The notes under the pieces are model-generated. The model was not told the origin of the DNA and did no database searches. It saw nothing but the letters and a program-made list of their open reading frames with translations. Positions 2,637 to 34,533 of a DNA stretch of 40,000 nt are shown piece by piece. Origin of the DNA: Oscillospiraceae bacterium (GTDB taxonomy: Bacteria; Bacillota; Clostridia; UBA1212). Both the position numbers and the translations under genes were made by a program. The stretch is taken from assembly GCA_015069195.1 (NCBI GenBank), contig SVJA01000016.1, positions 1 to 40,000 of the forward strand, in the 5' to 3' direction. Every line of letters begins with the position of its first letter. The first letter of the stretch is position 1.

Positions 2637-2779
2637 GCTATATTGATTTGTTTTTTTAAAAGTAAAATTTCTTATATATTGTAAATGGAATTTCTTGCAA
2701 ATATGATTTGCTTTTTATCGAACATACTTAACTTTAACGGGAGGTGAATTTTGTCGCATATAACTGTGGCAAGATTGTG

Positions 2780-5700
2780 ATGCTTAAAAAAGTTCTTAGT
2801 TTTTTGATTGCTGTTTGTATATTGGTTTCACCGCTCACTTTTGGTGTGCAGTATACCGATAATTTTGATACCGCTTTTATGACTTCTGATGCGGCGTCTG
2901 TTGCTCCTAACTATCGGGTGTTCAGACAGATAGATCAGGTATGGGGACAGTACGATCCGTCGGGTGGTGCCGGCTGTACTATATATAAGAACGGTTGCGG
3001 ATTGATTTCGATTGTTAATGCCGTTTACTATCTTAACGGCAATATCATAAATGTAAAGGCTTTGTTTGACTGGGCTTACAGCACAGGCGGTTACGGTACA
3101 AGCGGTACTTACAGAAATACTATTTATCCGAAACTTACTTCGACAATGGGTTCTGTTTACGGATTTTCTGTCGGTACTATGAAGTACGGCAAAGTTACAG
3201 ATTCTGCATTTATTTCACATCTCCAAAATGGTGGTACTGCCATTGTACATGTTGCAAATCACTTTATGTGTATTGCCGATTACGATGCGGCATCAGGCAG
3301 ATATCTTCTTTTGGACTGCGGTACCACATGGGGAAACCGTCATTCTTCCGTCGGCGGTAACTGGATGACTGCAAACGAGCTGCAGGGTGGCATTACATCA
3401 AATCTCAATGTTGACTGGTGGTGTCTTTTCTCAGCGGCTTCAGCGTCTTGTACAAATTATACTTTAACTGCTAAGGCAGGTTCAGGTAAAGGTTCCGTTT
3501 TCTTCTTTGACGATGTTTCTACTGCAAAATTTGCAGGCGGTGACTGTGTATTCTTCAGACCGGTTCCTGCGAGCGGTTACAAAGTGTCGTCCATTACTTT
3601 GAACGGAACTTCTATTGCTGTTCAGAATAACGGAAATCCGGCGATGTACCAGCTTACTATGCCTAAGGCTAATGCAGAACTTGTTGTAAACTTTACAACA
3701 GGCGGTACTACGAATTCCAATAATATGATAGTATCTTCTGCATCATATACACTTCCTGCATCCCTCGGCTCGAGAGGTGACTGTGCTGAGCCGAATACTT
3801 ATGTAGGTTGGTTCCCGGCAGGTACAACATCTTTTACAAAGGCTACAGCTATTACGTATTATTCTGCTACTGCATATTTTTATGAAAATAATAAGAGTGC
3901 AATCGGTTATACGATGGAAATGCAGGCCGGTTACCGGGGCGGAAATTATACAAAGTACAATACTACGGGTACTTTTATAGAGGTTATTTTTGATAATTCT
4001 ACAGGTAAGGCTGTTTCTAATACTGTGAACGTTACCGTAAGCGGTTCTGATCCGTTTGCAGATACATTGACTTATATTCCGAGCGGTAAGAACGGTAATA
4101 TTTCTGATGACGGTACTTCATCAGGCGGTGGTAATACAGGTGGCGGAACGACTACATATAATCTTAAACCGACAGATATTATTTTTGACGTGCCGGATGC
4201 AGGTGCCTGGATAAGTGCGGGAGCCGTCAGCTCGACTTCGCTTGCTTTTGAAACTACTTCAAAAGGTGATACTGCGTTAAAAATGACAGCATCCGCTTCA
4301 AGTGATCCGTTTGTTACATTAAATTATTCATTGCTTGATGTTTTCAGTGCAAGCACGTACAAATATATGATTGTTACTGCTATGACAACTTCGTCAAATA
4401 AAAATGCCAAGATGTATCTTTCTGCAGGTTCTTTGCAGGGTGCCTCGGAGTCTTGTGCTAAAGGCTGGCAGTGGAATAATGACGGATTGTGGCATGATTA
4501 TGTGATCGATCTCAGCTCTTTAAGTAACTGGACAGGTAACGTAAATCAGATAAGATTTGACTATTTCGACGGTGAGACCGCAGCCAACAGCGTGCTTTAT
4601 CTCCGATCTGTTCGTTTCTTGAGTTCCGCACCGTCAAATCCTACTGTTACAACTTCTTATTCAACCTTTGCAGTCGGGTCTGATATTGTTGTAAGTTATT
4701 CGGGTATTGAGAGTTATCTCGGTACTAAGCAGAATGCAGATGTTTACGTAGGTATTTATCCGCAGGGCGTAAAACCCGGTGAGAATGCATCACTTTTGTG
4801 GGCGGCTACTTCTTCTGTAAGCGGTACGGTAAACGTAACACAGAATGCTTTGGGCGGAAGTAAGTACGGTCAGACTCTTTCTAAAGGAGACTATACTGCA
4901 TGGATTTCTTATGACGGAAAGGGTACTACGGAAAGTTATAATATAAACAACGTAATGTTTGCTTCGAGCAGTTCATCTTGTGATTTCAGCATTGCAGATA
5001 CTGCAAGTTCTAAATATCCGAGTCTTAAAACGGATGATATTATCTTCGATATGCCGGATGCCGGTGCTTGGATTAGTGAAGGTTCTGTTAATCAATCTGC
5101 TTTAGCTTTTGAAACCACTTCAAAAGGTGATACCGCGTTAAAGCTAACTGCAAATGCGACTGCTACTAACGATGCATACGTTACTCTTAAATATTCATTG
5201 CTTGATACGATCAGTGCCGATGATTACAAATATATGATTATCACAGCTATGACAACTTCTTCAAATACCGATGCTAAGATGTATTTTTCAGCAGGTTCTT
5301 TGCAGGGTGCATCAGAATCTTGTGCAAAAGGATGGCAGTGGAATAACGATGGTTTATGGCATGATTATGTGATAGATCTTACTTCTTTAAGTAATTGGAC
5401 GGGTAACGTAAATCAGTTAAGATTTGACTATTTTAACGGAACCGTTGCTACCGGAACAGCACTTTATTTGCGTTCCGTTCGTTTTGTTAAATCTGCTCCG
5501 TCTAAACCTACCGTAACAACAGAGACTCCTTCTTTTGTAGTAGGTTCAGATATAGTTCTTAATTACTCAGGTCTTGATAGCTACTTAGATACAAAACAAA
5601 ATGCAGACGTTTACGTGGGTATTTATAATAAAGGCGAAAAACCGGGTTCTGTCGCTTCGTTGCAGTGGGCTGCCACTACTTCTACTAACGGCACAGTAAA

Positions 5701-7186
5701 CGTAACACAGAATGCTTTGGGCGGTTCTATGTTCGGTGCTGAACTTCCTGTGGGTGAGTATACTGCATGGATTACTTATGATGCGATGGGTACTACATCT
5801 TCCTATAACTTAAATAATGTAATGTTTGATTCTGCAAGTGCATCATATGATTTTGCTATTACTGAAAACTTGTATTCGCTCAACGCTACTGTTTCCGGCG
5901 GAAGCGGCAGCGCACACTTTGGTAATAACGTAACAAGTCTTAACGTAGAAGCCGGCTGGACCGTAAACGTTCAGGTGACTCCAAGCACCGGTTATAAAGT
6001 AAGCTCAATAAAGATAAACGGTACAGCGCAGACTATAAAAAATAACGGCGGAGAGTATGTTTATACTTTCACAATGCCTGCTCAGAATACAACCGTTGCG
6101 GTTACCTTTACAAAGATTCAGTATGCGGTATCAGTCGGCACTGTTTCAAACGGTACGGTGACACTTTCTAAAACAGGAAACGTTGACTATGGTACAACTA
6201 TCACGGTTACCGCTACACCTGCTACAGGTTATAAACTCAATCAGATACTTGTAAACGGTACAGTTATTTCCGGTACAACATTTACAGTAACGGCTGCCTC
6301 CACGGTAACTGCTACGTTTACTCAGAACTTATATTCTCTCAATGCTACTGTTTCCGGCGGAAGCGGTGTCGTACACTTTGGGGACAATGTTACGAGCGGA
6401 AATCTTGCATATGGCTCGACTGTAAATTATCAGGTAACACCAAGCACAGGTTATAAGGTTTCTAAGATTTTGGTGAACGGAACCGAGCAGACTATAAAAA
6501 ATAACGGCGGAGAGTATGTTTATACTTTCACAATGCCTGCTCAGAATACAACTGTTGCCGTTACCTTTACAAAGATTCAGTATGCGGTATCAGTCGGCAC
6601 TGTTTCAAACGGTACGGTGACACTTTCTAAAACAGGAAACGTTGACTATGGTACAACTATCACGGTTACTGCTACACCTGCTACAGGTTATAAACTCAAT
6701 CAGATACTTGTAAACGGTACAGCTATTTCCGGTACAACATTTACAGTAACGGCTGCCTCCACGGTAACTGCTGCGTTTAAACCGGTTATTTCGGACACGG
6801 ATTATGATTTTGTTGTCGGTGGAAGTACAGGCAGCACTGTAATATCCGCAACAGTTGGTCATACGATAGATGTTGCTCTTAATAATCTTGTTGCACTCGG
6901 TGGTTCGGATTCTGTTACAATCAAGAAGGCTGATGGTGAAGTTGCTGTAAATACAGATTTAATAGCAACCGGTATGATTGCTGAAATTGACGGCAAGGAT
7001 TACACAATCGTTGTATTCGGAGACGTCGATTGCGACGGTAAGGTTACTGTTGCTGATGCTCAAACTGCTTATGCTTGCCTTAAAGGTACTGCTGAACTTT
7101 CTGCTGCATCAAAGGACGCTGCTAAAATGGCTAAATCAGGTGCTGTATCTATTATCGATGTAATGGCTGTTTTGAATATGATCTGA
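2780..7186 (+). CDS. Secreted multimodular protein: C39-like cysteine peptidase, duplicated modules, InlB-type repeats and C-terminal dockerin
   Basis: The frame is open from GTG 2744; ATG 2780 is preferred because a signal peptide (MLKKVLSFLIAVCILVSP) starts exactly there. Numbering below is from GTG 2744 (subtract 12 for ATG). Residues ~58-230 resemble a C39-like papain-fold peptidase: candidate oxyanion Gln in FRQIDQVWG, Cys85 in KNGCGLISIVNA, His173 in VANHFMC and Asp191 in YLLLDCG. A beta-repeat domain (~236-318) and a second small domain follow. A ~287-residue module then occurs twice (from ~474 and ~761), followed by four InlB/Flg_new-like repeats arranged as a 153-residue tandem pair. 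Residues ~1352-1425 form a small pre-dockerin domain and 1426-1480 a type I dockerin (GDVDCDGKVTVAD then SGAVSIIDVMAVLNMI). The protein is therefore extracellular and probably docked to a cohesin. The peptidase substrate is unknown. Autoprocessing or adhesin function is possible. Confidence 0.8.
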   Translation: MLKKVLSFLIAVCILVSPLTFGVQYTDNFDTAFMTSDAASVAPNYRVFRQIDQVWGQYDPSGGAGCTIYKNGCGLISIVNAVYYLNGNIINVKALFDWAYSTGGYGTSGTYRNTIYPKLTSTMGSVYGFSVGTMKYGKVTDSAFISHLQNGGTAIVHVANHFMCIADYDAASGRYLLLDCGTTWGNRHSSVGGNWMTANELQGGITSNLNVDWWCLFSAASASCTNYTLTAKAGSGKGSVFFFDDVSTAKFAGGDCVFFRPVPASGYKVSSITLNGTSIAVQNNGNPAMYQLTMPKANAELVVNFTTGGTTNSNNMIVSSASYTLPASLGSRGDCAEPNTYVGWFPAGTTSFTKATAITYYSATAYFYENNKSAIGYTMEMQAGYRGGNYTKYNTTGTFIEVIFDNSTGKAVSNTVNVTVSGSDPFADTLTYIPSGKNGNISDDGTSSGGGNTGGGTTTYNLKPTDIIFDVPDAGAWISAGAVSSTSLAFETTSKGDTALKMTASASSDPFVTLNYSLLDVFSASTYKYMIVTAMTTSSNKNAKMYLSAGSLQGASESCAKGWQWNNDGLWHDYVIDLSSLSNWTGNVNQIRFDYFDGETAANSVLYLRSVRFLSSAPSNPTVTTSYSTFAVGSDIVVSYSGIESYLGTKQNADVYVGIYPQGVKPGENASLLWAATSSVSGTVNVTQNALGGSKYGQTLSKGDYTAWISYDGKGTTESYNINNVMFASSSSSCDFSIADTASSKYPSLKTDDIIFDMPDAGAWISEGSVNQSALAFETTSKGDTALKLTANATATNDAYVTLKYSLLDTISADDYKYMIITAMTTSSNTDAKMYFSAGSLQGASESCAKGWQWNNDGLWHDYVIDLTSLSNWTGNVNQLRFDYFNGTVATGTALYLRSVRFVKSAPSKPTVTTETPSFVVGSDIVLNYSGLDSYLDTKQNADVYVGIYNKGEKPGSVASLQWAATTSTNGTVNVTQNALGGSMFGAELPVGEYTAWITYDAMGTTSSYNLNNVMFDSASASYDFAITENLYSLNATVSGGSGSAHFGNNVTSLNVEAGWTVNVQVTPSTGYKVSSIKINGTAQTIKNNGGEYVYTFTMPAQNTTVAVTFTKIQYAVSVGTVSNGTVTLSKTGNVDYGTTITVTATPATGYKLNQILVNGTVISGTTFTVTAASTVTATFTQNLYSLNATVSGGSGVVHFGDNVTSGNLAYGSTVNYQVTPSTGYKVSKILVNGTEQTIKNNGGEYVYTFTMPAQNTTVAVTFTKIQYAVSVGTVSNGTVTLSKTGNVDYGTTITVTATPATGYKLNQILVNGTAISGTTFTVTAASTVTAAFKPVISDTDYDFVVGGSTGSTVISATVGHTIDVALNNLVALGGSDSVTIKKADGEVAVNTDLIATGMIAEIDGKDYTIVVFGDVDCDGKVTVADAQTAYACLKGTAELSAASKDAAKMAKSGAVSIIDVMAVLNMI
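4163..5866 (+). repeat. In-gene tandem duplication of an 861-base module (two copies)
   Basis: Unit 1 (4163-5023) and unit 2 (5024-5866) encode the same ~287-residue module with an 861-base offset. Shared landmarks include PDAGAWIS, FETTSKGDTALK, SAGSLQGASESCAKGWQWNN, GLWHDYVIDL and QNADVYVGIY. The copies are clearly homologous but diverged. Each module looks like a beta-sandwich of carbohydrate-binding type followed by a second beta domain. Confidence 0.9.
5867..6784 (+). repeat. In-gene tandem duplication of a 459-base unit (InlB-type beta repeats)
   Basis: Units 5867-6325 and 6326-6784 are offset by exactly 459 bases (153 codons). The last ~292 bases of each unit (6028-6319 against 6487-6778) differ at only five positions, while the first parts are more diverged. 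Each unit encodes two beta repeats of the type GYKVSSIKINGT...YTFTMPAQNTTVAVTFT. Confidence 0.92.
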
Positions 7187-13438: not shown

Positions 13439-15196
13439 ATGAAAAAATTTTTGTCTATTGTTTTGTGTATAGTTCTTGGTGTTTCCGTTCTTACAGGTTG
13501 CGGTGAAACGGATACTGATGGTGCAAATGACGGTACATCTGCTCCTTCTACATCGGTTCCTACAGCTACTCCCGAGCCGACACCCGTACCGGACGGAGAT
13601 ATTATTAAGAGCATGAACCTTTCAAATGTAGGACCTGAATTAAAGGATACTGCACTTGAACTTATGAAAAAAGAAGATGATGCGACTACTATTTATGTAA
13701 AAGATTACGGTGCTAAAGGTGATGGTGTTACCGACGATCGTAAAGCTGTTACCAAAGCGATTACCGCGCTTAAAAAACTTCCGAAAGGCAGCACTCTTGT
13801 TTTTGAACCAAATGCTACATACTATATGGGCAATAAAGGTGCGGCTATGACTCTCAACAATATGAAAAATCTCATTGTTAAAGGTGATAATACTACAATC
13901 TTGATTGATGCACCGGCGCAGTATTTTATAATGCAGAATAATGAGAACTTTGTTTTACAGGGCTTCAACTTCAACTATAAGACAAAACCGTATGCTTTCA
14001 CTACAAAGGTTGAAAATGTTGTCAATGGCGCAAAAGAATATTCTATTGTTGCTACATTGGATAGAAGTCTTGGTATTGATAAAAAAACTACATTTGCCGG
14101 ACTTGAAAGCTTTGGCGTATTGAACCGTGATGACGGAAGATATCATATGAGTATAAAATCTATTACTCCCGTTGATAAAGATGCATTTAAATACAAAATT
14201 GAGTTCAATAAAACAACTGCATTCCATCCGATCGATGACAGCTTAAAGCATGTTGAAAAAATGGGTATGATTGTACCTGTTCCGGGAATCGGACATAGTG
14301 TAGAGCAGGCGTTTACTGTTTTAAATAATAAGAACATTATGATGAAAGATTGTAATGTATGGTCTGCTTGTAAGTTTATGTTCTTTATAAGAGGTAATGA
14401 GGGTAAAGTTGTCTTTGATAATACAAATGTTACTCCGGATCCTGCCGAAGAGAAAAACGGCGATATAAGAATCGTAGGCTGGAGAGACGGTTTCCACTGT
14501 AAAGAAAACAGAGCACAGCTGGTATGGAAAGATTGTACTCTCGAATGGGTATATGATGATATATTTAACATTTGTTGTTCTATGCTCAAGGTAAATTCTT
14601 TTAAAGATAAAAATGTTGATTTAATTTGGCCTGAAACCAATGCTGCATACGGTCTGATAAAAAAAGGTGATGTAATCAGATTTTACAGCCCGAAAGGTAT
14701 TGATCTCGGAAGCGCGGAAGTTGTATCTGCAAAAGGCGACAGCGTTGTGTTGAAAAATGAAGTTGAAGGACTTGTTAAAAATTCATATGCTGCGGTTGAA
14801 ACACTTTCAGCTCCTAACTCGATGATTCTTAATTGTAAGATAAAGGGTACAATCAGATACAGAACACCTATGTATATTTACAATTCGGATATTCATGTTA
14901 CAAGAATGTGGCTTGCTTTTGAAATGGCAGGTGGCAGATATCTTGAAGGTCCTTGCCCGCATGATATTCTTTTCAGTAATTGTAATTTTACTTTTGATAA
15001 CACAAATGACAAATATATTGAGATTTTCTCTTCAAGTTCACAGGGTGAAAAAGCTCTGAAAAATCAAACCAAAAAACAGGATGAAGTTTTTCATGTAAAG
15101 AATATTGTATTCTTTAATTGTGAGCTTGATGAAGATCAGATTGAACTTAAATACGCAGAACTTTATTGTGACGATGTATATAGAATCGTAAAATAA
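13439..15196 (+). CDS. Lipoprotein with right-handed parallel beta-helix (pectate-lyase-like) domain, copy 1
   Basis: The 585-residue protein starts with a lipoprotein signal peptide (MKKFLSIVLCIVLGVSVLTGC; lipobox Leu-Thr-Gly-Cys) and a Thr/Pro-rich linker, so it should be anchored outside the membrane. Residues ~80-190 match the Pectate_lyase_3-type opening of beta-helix enzymes (VKDYGAKGDGVTDDRKAVTK, then FEPNATYYMG). Later coils carry VGWRDGFHCKEN and WVYDDIFNI, both conserved in the next gene. A KKGDVIRFY barrel-like segment inside the helix resembles the GH110 galactosidase layout, but this is only a resemblance. Polysaccharide binding or cleavage is inferred. ATG 13439 has AAAGGA upstream. 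A terminator at 15218-15253 separates it from its paralogue. Confidence 0.75.
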   Translation: MKKFLSIVLCIVLGVSVLTGCGETDTDGANDGTSAPSTSVPTATPEPTPVPDGDIIKSMNLSNVGPELKDTALELMKKEDDATTIYVKDYGAKGDGVTDDRKAVTKAITALKKLPKGSTLVFEPNATYYMGNKGAAMTLNNMKNLIVKGDNTTILIDAPAQYFIMQNNENFVLQGFNFNYKTKPYAFTTKVENVVNGAKEYSIVATLDRSLGIDKKTTFAGLESFGVLNRDDGRYHMSIKSITPVDKDAFKYKIEFNKTTAFHPIDDSLKHVEKMGMIVPVPGIGHSVEQAFTVLNNKNIMMKDCNVWSACKFMFFIRGNEGKVVFDNTNVTPDPAEEKNGDIRIVGWRDGFHCKENRAQLVWKDCTLEWVYDDIFNICCSMLKVNSFKDKNVDLIWPETNAAYGLIKKGDVIRFYSPKGIDLGSAEVVSAKGDSVVLKNEVEGLVKNSYAAVETLSAPNSMILNCKIKGTIRYRTPMYIYNSDIHVTRMWLAFEMAGGRYLEGPCPHDILFSNCNFTFDNTNDKYIEIFSSSSQGEKALKNQTKKQDEVFHVKNIVFFNCELDEDQIELKYAELYCDDVYRIVK

Positions 15197-15307: not shown

Positions 15308-15343
15308 GATTCCACTTAACTGTTATAAATGCGAGGTAAAAGT

Positions 15344-17260
15344 ATGAAAAAAATTGTTTCTGTAATTTTGCTTATTTGTGTCGCTTCGACTTTATTGTTC
15401 GGTTGCGGCGATGATTCTGCTAAGAAAACAGAAAGTCCGTCTGCTACTGTGGGTACAAATTCGTCGGAACCGGATGTTTTTGTTACTGATTATCCCGATA
15501 CAACAGCAACAGTAGATACTACTATTGCTCCTTCTGCGACAACCGGTACGCAGTCGACTTCAGCGCCGACTGCGACAAAGACTCCGTCTGCGACTTCGGG
15601 AAACTCGACAACGGTGTCAAAAGTATTTCCCCAAAATCCTAATGAGACAAATATTATTGAGTATCTCGGGCTGGAAAATGTAGGACGAAATGTTAAAAAT
15701 AATGCTGTTGAGAACCTTGCTAAGTACACAACCGGAACTACTTTGTACGTAAAAGATTTTGGTGCAAAGGGTGACGGTGTGACGGATGACCGTGCTGCTA
15801 TAAAAGATGCTATTTCCGCTCTGAACAAGGCTGCTGCCGGAAGCAAGTTGGTTTTTGAGTCCGGTAAAACCTATTATTGCGGAAAAAAGGCAGGTTCTGC
15901 GATGACTATTGCGGGTCTTAAAAATAAAATTGTTGATGGCAATGGTTCTACCATTCTCATTGATGCACCTGCTCAGTATCTTACAATGAATAACTCGCAG
16001 AACGTTATTCTTCGCGGTTTCAGCTTTAACTATAAGACTAAGCCGTATGCTTTTTCTACAAAAGTAGAGGATATAACTTCAAAAACTGCCGTTATCACTC
16101 TTGATCGTACTCTCGGTATTACCAGTACATACGAGACAAGTTATCTTGAATTCTTTGGACTTGTGAATCAGTATGAAGGCAGATATCATATGGGTATCTC
16201 AAAAATTGAGATTATTGATGCTGCTAAATTTAAATATAAAGTCACCTTTACGAATACATTTGGTGACATAGCCGGCAGAATAAAAGCTATCGAAAAAAAG
16301 GGTATAATATTCCCTGTGCCGAACATTGCACATAATGTTGAGCAGGCATTTACTGTTTTAAATAACACAAATGTGGCTTTCATGAATAACAACGTCTATA
16401 GTGCTTGCAAGTTCATGTTCTTTATCCATGGTACGGAGTCTCAATTATATTTTGATAATGTGAAAGTGGTTCCGGATCCGAAGGAAAATAACGGAAATAT
16501 TCTTATTTGCGGTTGGAGAGACGGTTTCCACTGTAAGGAAAATAGGGGACAGCTCATCTGGAACAATTGTACAATAAAGGCTCTTTATGATGACCTTTAC
16601 AACATTGCGAATACGATGACTCTGATAAAAGATCTTGAAAAAGCATCTGATGGTACAGTCTCCTTTAAACTTAGAAAATATACAGGTGCAAATGATATGT
16701 ATACCAATGTAAAGAAAGGCGACATTGTTTCGATATACGATTCCAGAACAGGTAAATTTGTAGGCACAAGTAAAATAAAAACATACAAGAAACAGATGAT
16801 TACTTTGGAAGATAACATTTCCGGACTTAAGAACGGACTGTATGTTTCGGTTGATTCACTTGCTGCACCGAATTCAATGATTTTAAATTGTAAACTTGAT
16901 GGCACGTTGCGTTTTAGAACTCCGATGCTTATTGCAGATTCAGAAATTCATTGCACCAGAATGTGGCTCGCTTTTGAAACTGCCGGTGGTCAGTACATAG
17001 AGGGTACTTGTCCGAAAAATATTTTGTTCAGCAATTGTAAGTTTTCTTTTGATAGTGAAGCCGGTGCACATATCGAGGTATATAATGCAAATACAAAGAG
17101 TACGTCTGCTCTTAAAGCTGATCCTTCTAAACAGGATGAGTATTTCCACGTAAAAGATATGATCTTCTATAAATGTAAAATAGATCAGAAACAGTTTGTT
17201 TATAAAAATGCAGAACAGTATTGTACTGACGTTACAAGATTTATAGAATGTACAAAATAA
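15344..17260 (+). CDS. Lipoprotein with right-handed parallel beta-helix domain, copy 2
   Basis: The protein has about 638 residues from ATG 15344 (GAGG at 15333-15336; an in-frame ATG at 15329 lacks a site). It has a lipoprotein signal (MKKIVSVILLICVASTLLFGC), a longer Ser/Thr-rich linker than copy 1, then the same domain order: VKDFGAKGDGVTDDRAAIKD, FESGKTYYCGK, CGWRDGFHCKENRGQL, LYDDLYNI, a KKGDIVSIY insertion and RTPMLIADSEIHCTRMW. Identity with copy 1 is high across the helix and low in the linker, which marks a tandem gene duplication. Function is inferred as a surface polysaccharide-active or polysaccharide-binding protein. No substrate can be assigned. Confidence 0.75.
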   Translation: MKKIVSVILLICVASTLLFGCGDDSAKKTESPSATVGTNSSEPDVFVTDYPDTTATVDTTIAPSATTGTQSTSAPTATKTPSATSGNSTTVSKVFPQNPNETNIIEYLGLENVGRNVKNNAVENLAKYTTGTTLYVKDFGAKGDGVTDDRAAIKDAISALNKAAAGSKLVFESGKTYYCGKKAGSAMTIAGLKNKIVDGNGSTILIDAPAQYLTMNNSQNVILRGFSFNYKTKPYAFSTKVEDITSKTAVITLDRTLGITSTYETSYLEFFGLVNQYEGRYHMGISKIEIIDAAKFKYKVTFTNTFGDIAGRIKAIEKKGIIFPVPNIAHNVEQAFTVLNNTNVAFMNNNVYSACKFMFFIHGTESQLYFDNVKVVPDPKENNGNILICGWRDGFHCKENRGQLIWNNCTIKALYDDLYNIANTMTLIKDLEKASDGTVSFKLRKYTGANDMYTNVKKGDIVSIYDSRTGKFVGTSKIKTYKKQMITLEDNISGLKNGLYVSVDSLAAPNSMILNCKLDGTLRFRTPMLIADSEIHCTRMWLAFETAGGQYIEGTCPKNILFSNCKFSFDSEAGAHIEVYNANTKSTSALKADPSKQDEYFHVKDMIFYKCKIDQKQFVYKNAEQYCTDVTRFIECTK

Positions 17261-30684: not shown

Positions 30685-33072
30685 ATGAAAAGATTGAAAA
30701 AAATCTTAGCTTTAGTGTTTGTAATAGCACTTTTGGTGAATAATTTTGCCGGTGTGACGACAGTCAGTGCGGAAAAGATTCCGTTGGTAGTGGAAGTAAA
30801 TCTGAATGGTATAGATTTGATGGAGATTAATATTCCTCGTTCTTTTAAACTCAGTCCTTATATGAGTTATTATCCTTTCGATATTTATTGGGATGAGGCT
30901 GACATTGACGAAGGTCCTTTTGTGGTTTTGAGCAAGGATAACTATGTTTGTATTGGTGATTATGATTTTTCTAACGTTAACAAAATTGTTATTACTTATC
31001 GTACTGACAGTGCTTTTTCTGCTGAAAGTTTGGTTACATCAGGTGAAAAGTATGCGGTAGGTCTTTCGAGTGTTGCCGGATCGTTCGGTACGGATACTAA
31101 TGTACCTGATTTTTCATCTGCAATAGTAAAAACTACTGTAGAAACCGGTTCAGGTAGTTGGACAGAAGAAAAAACGCTTACGATTACAAACAACATTGAT
31201 ACTTCATACAATGGTGAAGTCTGGCTGACAAACTATGCCACAAATGACCAAGCAATTATGATTTCAGGCATAACATTGTATTACGATGAATATGTTAAAG
31301 CTAATGTTTACGTTGAGGAAAGCTTATTCGGTAAAACAACTCTGAGCCACAGCGGTATGGTTGATATCGGTGAAGTAGTGACAGTAATTACAGAACCGGA
31401 TGAAAAGTATGAAGTTGATTATATAACTTTAAATGGTGGCATAATTGATGAGAACTCGTTTACTGTCAGAGGCGACACTGTCATCAGGGTTAATTATGTC
31501 AGAAAACTTCAATTCTATGATGGATATGACACGGAGTTTAATGTAACGGATGTTGATCCGACAGCCGTTTATGCAGGTTCTGTAAATTTGTTTACAAGTG
31601 CATCGAACGGAAACCGATATTCGTATGCAACAGGTGCGTGTGCGGTTCTCTGTAGTTATGACAGTGATAAGAATGCATACATTGTTGAGTCTTTTTCCAG
31701 AGGTGGGGGTAACTCATATTTGGAACTGGAACTTACGGAAAATCAAATATTATTATGGATAGGCATGAATGACAAAAATACTCAAAAGGCATTCACTTAC
31801 CTTAATGTAGGTACTTATATGTATCTTGAGGGTGTTGATTTGGTTAATAAGTCTGTTTCTGATGGTGCTTTGGCAGGATTCTTAAACAAGTATACTGCAA
31901 CTGTCGAACAGGCAGAACACGGAACTTTTTCAATAAAGAATCCCGAACCCGCTCCGTATGCTACAGAAATTTATTTAGAAGCAAAACCTGAACCGGGATA
32001 TAAGGTGGGTGGATATTGTGTTAATGGTGAACGAATAGAAGGTCATTCTTTCAAGATAACTCAGGACTCTGTAGTTAGTGCTGTATTTGTTGGCGATAAT
32101 ACACCGGATGGGCTGGATTATTATATTTCAGACAATGAAGTTATAGTCAAAGATTATTTTGGTAGTGGTACGGAGTTAAAAATTCCTGAAACTATAGAAG
32201 GATATCCTGTTACTACTCTTGATATGAATTCACTACGCTCGTGTCATACATTGGAAAGAATTTTTCTTCCGAAGACTATAAAAAGTATTCATCAAATAGC
32301 ATTGATATCAACAAGTAAGCTTTTATCGATTAGTGTTGATAAGGAAAATGAATATTTCAGTAGCGTTGATGGAGTTTTGTATACATCGGATTTAACTAAA
32401 TTGGTAAAATATCCTGATAATAAAGCAGATAGTTACTTTGTTGTTCCGGATGGTGTGACCGAATTGGGTTATTGTTCTTTTATGTATACGTATAACTTGA
32501 CTGCGTTATCATTGCCAAAATCATTGAAAATTATCGGTGATGCAGCCTTTTATTATGACAATATCACTGATGTATACTACAAAGGCACTGAAGCAGAGTG
32601 GGCTGATGTTGAAATCGTAAGAGGTGTTCCGCAATTGGCTAATGCCACTATTCACTATAACTGTGCATTTTCTCTTGCTGACAGTTTAGATATTAATATC
32701 AATTCAAACACCGGATTTATCACAGAGTTTGGTTTCGGTAAGACATTTGCAGAACTCAAAGGAATGTTTTCGGATACTGCTAACATCAGATTTACTGATT
32801 CCAAAGGTAATACACCTGAATCTACCGATATCGTAGGAACCGGATTTACCGTTGAACTTTTTTGCGATGACTTTGTAGTTGAAAAAATATCTGTGGTGCT
32901 TTCGGGTGACACAGATGGTGACGGTGCCGTTACTATTGCTGACACAATGGTTGCGTATAATCATTTAAGAGGAAAGGCTAAGGTAGATGGTGCTTACGCA
33001 GAAGCTGCAAAGGCAAGTGGTGGAGATAATATGTCGATTATCGACGTAATGACAATTCTTAATATGATTTGA
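30685..33072 (+). CDS. Secreted BspA-type leucine-rich-repeat protein with C-terminal dockerin
   Basis: The 795-residue protein has a signal peptide (MKRLKKILALVFVIALLVNN, with cleavage near VSA-EK). Residues ~30-210 form a beta-rich region of unknown family. Residues ~212-272 and ~405-475 look like InlB-type beta repeats. Residues ~475-660 are LRR_5/BspA-like leucine-rich repeats (LKIPETIEGYPVTTLD; LERIFLPKTIKSIHQIAL; VVPDGVTELGYCSF). A small pre-dockerin domain (~665-740) precedes a type I dockerin at 741-795 (GDTDGDGAVTIAD, then GGDNMSIIDVMTILNMI). It is probably cohesin-bound or surface-associated and used for adhesion or binding. No catalytic residues are apparent. A strong AAGGAGG site lies at 30669-30675. 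It has no homology with the first dockerin protein outside the shared module types. Confidence 0.82.
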   Translation: MKRLKKILALVFVIALLVNNFAGVTTVSAEKIPLVVEVNLNGIDLMEINIPRSFKLSPYMSYYPFDIYWDEADIDEGPFVVLSKDNYVCIGDYDFSNVNKIVITYRTDSAFSAESLVTSGEKYAVGLSSVAGSFGTDTNVPDFSSAIVKTTVETGSGSWTEEKTLTITNNIDTSYNGEVWLTNYATNDQAIMISGITLYYDEYVKANVYVEESLFGKTTLSHSGMVDIGEVVTVITEPDEKYEVDYITLNGGIIDENSFTVRGDTVIRVNYVRKLQFYDGYDTEFNVTDVDPTAVYAGSVNLFTSASNGNRYSYATGACAVLCSYDSDKNAYIVESFSRGGGNSYLELELTENQILLWIGMNDKNTQKAFTYLNVGTYMYLEGVDLVNKSVSDGALAGFLNKYTATVEQAEHGTFSIKNPEPAPYATEIYLEAKPEPGYKVGGYCVNGERIEGHSFKITQDSVVSAVFVGDNTPDGLDYYISDNEVIVKDYFGSGTELKIPETIEGYPVTTLDMNSLRSCHTLERIFLPKTIKSIHQIALISTSKLLSISVDKENEYFSSVDGVLYTSDLTKLVKYPDNKADSYFVVPDGVTELGYCSFMYTYNLTALSLPKSLKIIGDAAFYYDNITDVYYKGTEAEWADVEIVRGVPQLANATIHYNCAFSLADSLDININSNTGFITEFGFGKTFAELKGMFSDTANIRFTDSKGNTPESTDIVGTGFTVELFCDDFVVEKISVVLSGDTDGDGAVTIADTMVAYNHLRGKAKVDGAYAEAAKASGGDNMSIIDVMTILNMI

Positions 33073-33237: not shown

Positions 33238-33249
33238 GAGGTGAATAAA

Positions 33250-33831
33250 ATGTATCTCAATAATTTATTGAAAGAGCTCAATATTTCAAGGTATCGTCTG
33301 GCAAAAGACAGCGGTGTTCCGAAAACAACCATAATAGATATTTGTAGTGGTAAAGCCAGTATTGAAAAATGTTCAGCTGATACGATTTATAAAATTGCTA
33401 AAACTTTGGGTGTATCGATGGAGAGCATTGTGAGAGATGCTATAGAGTGTCCCAAAATAGAACGGATTTCATTTGATATTTTCAGAAGTAATATTTGTCA
33501 TTTAGTAAAAGATAAAGGTGATATCGATTTTATTATTGATACACTTTCGTCTGATGAGGTGCGAGTACTTTTTAATAGAGGCTGGTACCCGGAAGCATTC
33601 TATTTGCTTGCAACGGTTGATTATCTTTCACGCATAAATGATGTGCCGATATGCACAAATTATAATGATATCAGGGCGCAAAAGTTAGAAAAACTTTTAT
33701 TCAATACCGGTGTAGTTCTTACTGATGTAGCATCGGAGTCTGATGATAATTCTGTTGAGAGTCTTAATAGTGCTATTCCGGAATTCTTGAATTTTAATAT
33801 TGTGGAGGATGATATCAGAGATGTCTGTTAA
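33250..33831 (+). CDS. XRE-family DNA-binding protein, putative antitoxin-like partner
   Basis: The 193-residue protein has an N-terminal helix-turn-helix (residues ~1-60: LLKELNISRYRLAKDSGVPK, then TIIDICSGKASIEK). The C-terminal ~130 residues match no domain I recognise but have a mixed helical character (FIIDTLSSDEVRVLFNRGWY). ATG 33250 is preferred over GTG 33241 because the ribosome site GAGGTG (33238-33243) sits 6 bases before it. The last 11 bases overlap an ATG (33821) opening the 5' end of the nucleotidyltransferase gene, an arrangement typical of two-gene toxin-antitoxin modules. A palindrome in its own promoter supports autoregulation. The antitoxin role is inference. Confidence 0.72.
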   Translation: MYLNNLLKELNISRYRLAKDSGVPKTTIIDICSGKASIEKCSADTIYKIAKTLGVSMESIVRDAIECPKIERISFDIFRSNICHLVKDKGDIDFIIDTLSSDEVRVLFNRGWYPEAFYLLATVDYLSRINDVPICTNYNDIRAQKLEKLLFNTGVVLTDVASESDDNSVESLNSAIPEFLNFNIVEDDIRDVC

Positions 33832-33909
33832 GTCTGCTTTTACCTATGAAAATATTACAGGATTTTCAGTAGACTTGCAAAACAGTACAAAAAACTTTGT
33901 AAAAATAAG
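33821..33909 (+). other. Frameshifted 5' end of the nucleotidyltransferase gene
   Basis: ATG 33821 (GGAGG at 33803-33807) opens a reading frame starting MSVKSAFTYENITGF that stops early. The -1 frame from 33850 reads protein-like sequence (RIFSRLAKQYKKLCKNKMPAE) straight into the nucleotidyltransferase. Adding one T to the run at 33863-33866 would give a continuous ENITGFFSRLAKQYKKL. The frame switch therefore looks like loss of one base, unless recoding rescues it. Confidence 0.7.
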
Positions 33910-34533
33910 ATGCCGGCAGAGATTGTTTTAATCGGTGGTGCTGCTATTCTTGCAAATTATGGTTTTCGTGAGTCAACTTATGACATTGATGCTATAATAA
34001 ATGCCTCGGAGTATATGAAAGATGCCATTAATATTGTAGGTGATGAGTTGGGACTACCGAATGGTTGGATGAATTCGGACTTTGTAAAGACTTCTTCCTA
34101 TTCACCGAAATTGATTTTATATTCAAAATTTTATAAACGTTTTGGGAATATTATTGATGTTCGTACTGTTACCGGTGAGTATCTTATTGCAATGAAACTG
34201 ATGTCCGCCAGGCAATATAAAAATGATATTTCAGATGTGATCGGTATTTTAATTGAAGAAAAAAGACGTGGCAATGATATTACGCACGAAATAATACGGA
34301 ATGCAGTTGTTAATTTATACGGAGAATGGATGTGTATTCCTGAGAAATCTCGAAAATTTTCTGAGGAATTGTTTGTTGGGGGAAAACTGGAATATTTGTA
34401 TAAAAAATACAGAGAGAATGAGATAGAAGCAAGAATTTTGTTGACTGAATTTAAACAGGAATACAAAGATGTTGTGAACATTGATAATGTTAATGAAATA
34501 CTTGAAAATTTAAAGAAGCGAAAAAAAGAATAA
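33910..34533 (+). CDS. Nucleotidyltransferase-fold protein (DUF6036-like), putative toxin component, 5' end frameshifted
   Basis: The main frame encodes 207 residues from ATG 33910. IGGAAILANYGFRESTYDID carries the minimal nucleotidyltransferase signature (Gly-Gly, spacer, Asp-x-Asp), comparable to that in AbiEii/MNT-type toxins. The rest is alpha-helical, with LIAMKLMSARQYKNDISDVI typical of this group (the K-x-x-A-x-R-x-K-D-x-x-D element). ATG 33910 has no ribosome site; the natural start is probably ATG 33821 in another frame, so the present sequence is either inactivated, mis-sequenced or recoded. The partner is the XRE protein upstream. A hairpin at 34545-34578 ends the unit. Confidence 0.75.
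   Translation: MPAEIVLIGGAAILANYGFRESTYDIDAIINASEYMKDAINIVGDELGLPNGWMNSDFVKTSSYSPKLILYSKFYKRFGNIIDVRTVTGEYLIAMKLMSARQYKNDISDVIGILIEEKRRGNDITHEIIRNAVVNLYGEWMCIPEKSRKFSEELFVGGKLEYLYKKYRENEIEARILLTEFKQEYKDVVNIDNVNEILENLKKRKKE

Follow-up and report, generated by a model that had tools for sequence, protein, structure and literature searches.

Do the two dockerins encoded in this window (the whole 40,000-nucleotide stretch of DNA that was analysed, contig C13 of its genome) belong to a class of their own that docks on cohesins in a single orientation? Both stand at the C-terminus of a secreted protein. A sequence-only reading had described each as a module of 55 residues with one intact calcium loop and a closing tail of the pattern SIIDVMxxLNMI, and this description is borne out, a stop codon following at once in both cases. 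It had also proposed that loss of the second calcium loop together with the kept tail marks a single-mode class. The features on which the question turns are as follows.

2744..7186, forward strand: P0001, secreted, with a C39-peptidase-like N-terminal region, B-repeats (Flg_new_2), a duplicated module of ~250 residues, and a C-terminal X-like module plus dockerin
6800..7018, forward strand: X-like module of ~70-75 residues before dockerin 1, conserved (alignment A3, 32 dyads), boundary approximate
7019..7183, forward strand: dockerin module 1, 55 residues
7022..7057, forward strand: intact calcium loop of dockerin 1 repeat 1, DVDCDGKVTVAD, its ligand positions near invariant in 29 modules
7124..7159, forward strand: loop of dockerin 1 repeat 2, KMAKSGAVSIID, without Asp/Asn at positions 1, 3 and 5, D12 kept
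7151..7183, forward strand: fixed tail of dockerin 1, IIDVMAVLNMI, positions 10-20 of repeat 2
30685..33072, forward strand: P0002, secreted, with a carbohydrate-binding-like N-terminal domain, a B-repeat, BspA-type leucine-rich repeats, and an X-like module plus dockerin
32905..33069, forward strand: dockerin module 2, 55 residues
33010..33045, forward strand: loop of dockerin 2 repeat 2, KASGGDNMSIID, without ligands at positions 1, 3 and 5, D12 kept
33037..33069, forward strand: fixed tail of dockerin 2, IIDVMTILNMI, positions 10-20 of repeat 2

Dockerin 1 spans residues 1426-1480 of the 2744-7186 frame and dockerin 2 residues 741-795 of the 30685-33072 frame. The first loop of dockerin 2 reads DTDGDGAVTIAD, and the tail segments are SIIDVMAVLNMI in dockerin 1 and SIIDVMTILNMI in dockerin 2. 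With Asp and Asn absent from positions 1, 3 and 5 of both second loops, neither module has the two calcium loops with Asp/Asn ligands of the Pfam family Dockerin_1 (PF00404). On the proteins, that profile gives 19.1 bits for module 1 and 13.7 bits for module 2, both under the curated cut-off of 22.9 bits. Searched against the DNA of the same genome, it scores module 1 above the cut-off (25.5 bits) and module 2 under it (18.3); 13 of the 24 places found in this way exceed the cut-off, some only with in-frame neighbours.

The N-terminal 330 residues of P0001 are 37-69% identical to those of paralogues, three of which match Peptidase_C39_2 under its cut-off. The ~250-residue module of P0001, of unknown function, is duplicated at window positions 4150-5770 (residues ~470-1010), its copies being 74% identical, and is common to most C39-like proteins of the tail class. 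The X-like module has no Pfam match, and AlphaFold confidence is low over most of it. Elsewhere in the window, positions 13439-15196 and 15329-17260 encode two lipoproteins, paralogues in tandem, whose GAKGDGVTDD motif is of the sort usually seen in pectate-lyase-like beta-helix proteins. Just past the second dockerin gene, positions 33241-34533 encode a Cro/CI-like helix-turn-helix protein and then a nucleotidyltransferase-like protein, possibly a toxin-antitoxin-like pair.

A genus-wide family with unequal repeats

The genome of the window (G000; 2.0 Mb, 23 contigs, 96% complete) has 23 places that match the module profile (alignment A2): 21 complete tail-class modules, the interrupted module L020/L093 and the canonical dockerin L003. 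Profile search of G001, the only other congeneric species examined (69% complete), finds nine complete modules, two of them in the identical loci L052 and L053, so that the two examples first noticed grow to 21 in one species and nine in the other. The sister genus (G002) holds a weaker relative in which the tail consists of NIL or NII, five mostly variable residues and LN, with T, A or S at position 12. No match was found in the other family or order genomes searched. In a class sample of 391 genomes, the one match at 1e-12 besides the genome itself is a canonical dockerin (L062). Among the matches listed for a genome search with alignment A4, most are ordinary two-loop dockerins from other bacteria and one is a similar loop-2-poor module, present in two uncultured Clostridium genomes (L065, L066). 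No name was found in Pfam or NCBIfam for either the dockerin group or the X-like module. As a hint at lineage, the DnaK gene has its closest DNA match, among the records of a plasmid collection, in Monoglobus pectinilyticus (73%). By profile similarity, the tail-class modules are a genus-wide family of about thirty members, 55 to 59 residues in length.

Conservation crosses over between the two repeats when positions 1-20 of each are counted in 29 modules from the two species. In repeat 1 the ligands are kept (D1 in 29/29, D5 in 27/29, D12 in 29/29) and positions 14, 17 and 18 of the helix face are variable. Repeat 2 has D1 in 7 of the 29 modules, D or N at position 5 in six, D12 in 22 and E12 in four, and its helix is nearly fixed: M14 and L17 occur in every module, N18 in 28, and I/V at position 10 and L/I at position 11 in all. 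Mean entropy at ligand positions 1, 3, 5 and 12 is 0.39 bits in repeat 1 versus 2.44 in repeat 2. At positions 10, 11, 17 and 18, the named recognition positions of R. albus dockerins (PMC4081043), it is 1.58 bits versus 0.44.

The crossover statistic for the 21 modules of the own genome is 3.38, a value reached by none of 10,000 within-sequence repeat-swap permutations; as the positions were picked with the finding already known and the sequences are related, this count differs from an independent-sample probability. The statistic is -0.26 for 21 dockerins of a control genome from the same family (G007, 9% contamination listed), whose loop 2 is intact in 21/21, and repeat-to-repeat identity is 0.21 in tail-class modules versus 0.71 in that control. 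G007 was used in place of the A4 search matches, which were left out as a symmetric control because the query pattern had chosen them. G007 itself (loci L133-L161) encodes about 50 dockerins, most of them symmetric, along with 27 cohesins, and several proteins bear both modules. As aligned, the tail-class modules do not have the near-symmetric recognition faces that are the dual-mode trait of PF00404; this does not exclude membership of that family, since single-mode type I dockerins are known.

The state of loop 2 is graded across the family, from 0 to 3 of 3 ligands. Asp or Asn is kept at positions 1, 3 and 5 in only three of the 29 modules (L002, L005 and, in G001, L052), and there the tail is unchanged. 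Second-loop loss, which had been taken to define the class, therefore does not define it. What survives of the single-mode proposal is a distinct asymmetric group with a selected tail, for which binding in one orientation is the best explanation.

Candidate cohesin partners and cargo

We consider it fairly probable that these are genus-specific asymmetric dockerins with divided labour, which bind in one orientation, likely on an anchor cohesin. Repeat 1, whose ligands are seen in the sequence, would retain the calcium site that holds the fold. Helix 3 of repeat 2 would present the invariant cohesin-facing positions I/V10, L/I11, M14, L17 and N18 and thereby impose one orientation. The calcium loop of repeat 2 would then be freed to decay, and in most members the helix may instead begin at an ordinary N-cap box, S/N9-x-x-D/E12. 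R. flavefaciens group 1 dockerins rely chiefly on helix 1 for their single binding mode (PMC5429695), so that in tail-class modules the main contact might lie elsewhere than in the conserved helix 3. Through the module, some twenty secreted proteins would be fixed to the cell surface; the most likely receptor is the anchor cohesin at G000:C17:312471-312779, in preference to the tandem cohesins of the neighbouring scaffoldin.

Profile search places five cohesins in the own genome, four of them above the cut-off. Two cohesin genes adjoin canonical dockerins: L001 lies next to the cohesin-plus-membrane-anchor gene L026 (C23) and L003 next to L029 (C18). G001 retains the L003/L029 pair, and G002 has one like it. 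Other dockerins of the genome with both loops intact and no shared tail had been named as evidence against a separate class; L001 and L003 are such dockerins, but each sits beside its own cohesin-anchor gene, and they look like separate private dockerin-cohesin pairs. The C23 pair combines an LRR-dockerin with a cohesin, and the C18 pair an SH3/glucosaminidase-like X-dockerin with a cohesin-cadherin-like protein (L088, L089, L123, L129).

The anchor cohesin belongs to a scaffoldin cluster composed of a tandem-cohesin scaffoldin and a cohesin-Ig-membrane anchor. The contig end cuts the scaffoldin in G000, and it is complete in G001; its cohesins are represented by G000:C17:315324-315668 and by gene B of L122. 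It is conceivable, though unlikely, that the same single-mode dockerins bind these tandem cohesins and build a small multi-protein complex. Where cargo proteins are numerous, they are usually received by tandem cohesins. A count of twenty cargo proteins is high for one anchor cohesin, which speaks against the anchor reading. The scaffoldin and anchor genes are neighbours in each of the two species. Of 29 order genomes searched, 3 have the scaffoldin, the same three that carry the module or its relative; these three are close kin, so their co-occurrence lends weak support. Against this arrangement, identity between G000 and G001 is only 23% in the scaffoldin cohesins, with the recognition residues of the dockerins staying the same; it is 65% in the anchor cohesin and 79% in the remainder of the scaffoldin. 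Given identical recognition residues in G000 and G001, the better-conserved anchor cohesin is favoured over the scaffoldin cohesins, and from this one species pair we infer the membrane-anchored single cohesin to be the best-supported candidate partner. The C22 cohesin, with 69% identity between G000 and G001, is a further possible partner. Choice of the anchor cohesin agrees with the C. thermocellum dockerins that recruit proteins straight to the cell surface, which are single-mode (PMC5429695).

The scaffoldins compared are those of L086:4653-7358 and L122:5261-8308. Within G001 the cohesin copies are 97% identical, which, with the low identity between the species, suggests cassette replacement and homogenisation. 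The scaffoldin C-termini in L086 and L122, VGSLTADATVTDLLKLSNYGTALVTTDLIAVRNIAVRAN, resemble a shortened dockerin with both calcium loops reduced.

Pfam assigns the cargo to C39-like peptidases (under the cut-off), BspA-type leucine-rich repeats, GDSL esterases, SH3 domains and B-repeats, together with a transglutaminase-like domain, a tyrosine phosphatase and a metallophosphoesterase. There is no glycoside hydrolase among the cargo proteins scanned with Pfam, and several have no recognised catalytic domain. Going by this domain content, the system looks like surface display of other proteins rather than a cellulosome.

Calcium, history and order of the halves

The AlphaFold model of window module 1 has a pLDDT of 84-94 per ten-residue block over the dockerin part. 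Segment 83-140 of the model superposes on C. thermocellum dockerins to within 0.9-1.0 A (55-58 residues, Z 10.8-11.9), with Z 11.9 and 0.9 A for 2CCL chain B. In the model, the loop-helix, linker helix, loop-helix fold of type I dockerins (PF00404) is present. The input alignment included canonical dockerins, and the model thus speaks for compatibility with the fold and not for absence of calcium. Sequence is likewise no proof of ion loss in tail-class modules, since the crystallised ScaA dockerin of R. flavefaciens keeps a second calcium ion although its second repeat is unrecognisable in sequence (PMC5934362). With this precedent, and with D12 in 22 of 29 modules and E in four, the ligand-less loops might hold a second calcium through D12, main-chain carbonyls and water, like the altered loops of R. 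flavefaciens ScaA and CttA. We regard this as improbable. Position 12 together with S/N9 would read as an ion-free helix-capping box, the sister genus has T, A or S there, and the recognition face is asymmetric either way, as the repeat-to-repeat identities indicate.

The history of the tail bears on whether the second half has a function at all. For seven G000-G001 pairs, whose orthology was assigned from similarity and the tree, identity reaches 77% both in loop 1 and in the tail, as against 49% in loop 2 and 48% in helix 1 (Fisher p 0.0004-0.0009). Where the tail residues of paralogues agree, their codons are identical in only 45% of comparisons. This diversity rules out recent copying or gene conversion of the tail and points to protein-level selection as the force that maintains it. 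That the second half is simply decaying, with modules becoming non-functional and the tail a leftover, could draw on the gradation of loop 2 from intact to absent and on one module with a large insertion; it is nonetheless very improbable, given that loop 1 and the tail exceed loop 2 and helix 1 in identity between the species and that tail residues are fixed though their codons differ. In the tree, ligand-less modules group as between-species pairs, which makes loop-2 loss older than the species split. Ligand-rich second loops persist in two clades, L004/L006/L007 and L009/L052, and the tree, whose branches are partly unsupported, suggests more than one loss. L002 and L005 have no X-like module and are absent from the tree; in both, a full loop 2 is followed by the usual tail. 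It is therefore probable that the tail arose before loop 2 was lost.

Two unusual arrangements concern the halves themselves. Against the family profile, L018 (G000:C21, protein L092) rises from 11.8 to 32.9 bits when its halves are swapped, and its counterpart L057 (G001:C6) from 25.6 to 43.1. In the controls, two family members fall from 89.0 to 49.9 and from 79.9 to 50.3 bits, three symmetric dockerins shift by less than 4 bits, and four others score no better swapped. The improved scores indicate that L018 and L057 carry the calcium half and the recognition half in reverse order, an order conserved in two species that the two-fold shape of the dockerin would tolerate. In L093:1961-4018 (G000:C10), the dockerin extends from open-frame residue 119 through helix 1 and the linker, gives way to an insert of ~150 residues, and resumes with SLSILDVMGAINLI, the tail kept and a GDSL esterase next. 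The carbohydrate-binding-like insert, seen in a single assembly (G000), occupies the expected site of the second loop. Its relatives are the P0002 N-terminal domain and a protein of the scaffoldin cluster (27-28% identity, E 3e-7 and 2e-9). These putative reversed and interrupted modules fit specialised dockerin halves. A role of the fixed tail in C-terminal sorting or anchoring, with no relation to cohesins, is scarcely credible. Although the tail ends most of the proteins, it need not do so: in L015, L024, L054 and L093 it is internal and followed by further sequence including enzyme domains. It also lies in the first half of reversed L018/L057 and is always accompanied by an intact first loop (29 modules).

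A broader proposition, offered tentatively, follows the reading of divided labour: the halves may have separate jobs and be so loosely coupled that their order was reversed once and a domain inserted once, with peptidases and leucine-rich-repeat proteins, in place of recognisable plant-cell-wall enzymes, fixed on a constant surface cohesin while the scaffoldin cohesins were replaced. In some thirty natural variants, the family seems to have uncoupled calcium binding from cohesin recognition, and the second loop that accompanies the shared recognition helix may be intact, partial or absent. Such variants allow one to ask whether the second calcium matters for binding, for stability or for docking in one or two orientations, questions that symmetric dockerins make hard to separate. 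How independent the dockerin halves are can be probed with the reversed and interrupted modules, and designed complexes could use tail-class modules as orthogonal connectors of a single orientation.

Relation to known dockerin systems

Membership of an already described dockerin group had been named as a further ground against a new class, and here the outcome is divided: the feature is known from R. flavefaciens, but the sequence group is absent among solved dockerins and the other genomes searched. An altered or unrecognisable second loop, or a single mode, occurs in R. flavefaciens group 2 (PMC2930009, PMC5301203), in ScaA (PMC5934362) and in type III dockerins generally (PMC12484212). The group 2 or "half" dockerins resemble the tail class in that only the first calcium repeat is recognisable and in their C-terminal position. 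They differ, going by their description as truncated and group 4-like, from tail-class modules, in which the second helix has its full length and is the most conserved part.

The group 5 ScaA dockerin (type III, 5N5P) likewise has an unrecognisable second loop with an insert in it, and its single binding mode has been shown (PMC5934362). It is, however, a lone member that serves scaffoldin assembly, and it coordinates two calcium ions. The family profile matches 5N5P chain B with 19.7 bits over positions 1-25 (the first loop) only, in a PDB from which most R. flavefaciens group sequences are absent. Single-mode binding through lost internal symmetry is also shared with R. flavefaciens groups 1, 3 and 6 and with C. 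thermocellum cell-surface dockerins (PMC5429695, PMC5301203), groups 3 and 6 standing in a half-swapped relation to each other (PMC5301203). Unlike that of the tail-class modules, their cargo is mostly plant-cell-wall enzymes, and the solved group 1a complex has two dockerin calcium ions. The classic type I dockerin of C. thermocellum Xyn10B (1OHZ/2CCL) shares the fold of the module 1 model, but has two intact loops, a symmetric face and a dual mode. Lopsided, loop-2-less or single-mode dockerins are thus already known from R. flavefaciens; the novelty lies in the sequence group, in a crossover measured across many paralogues, some of them with loop 2 intact, and in the modules whose halves are reversed or interrupted.
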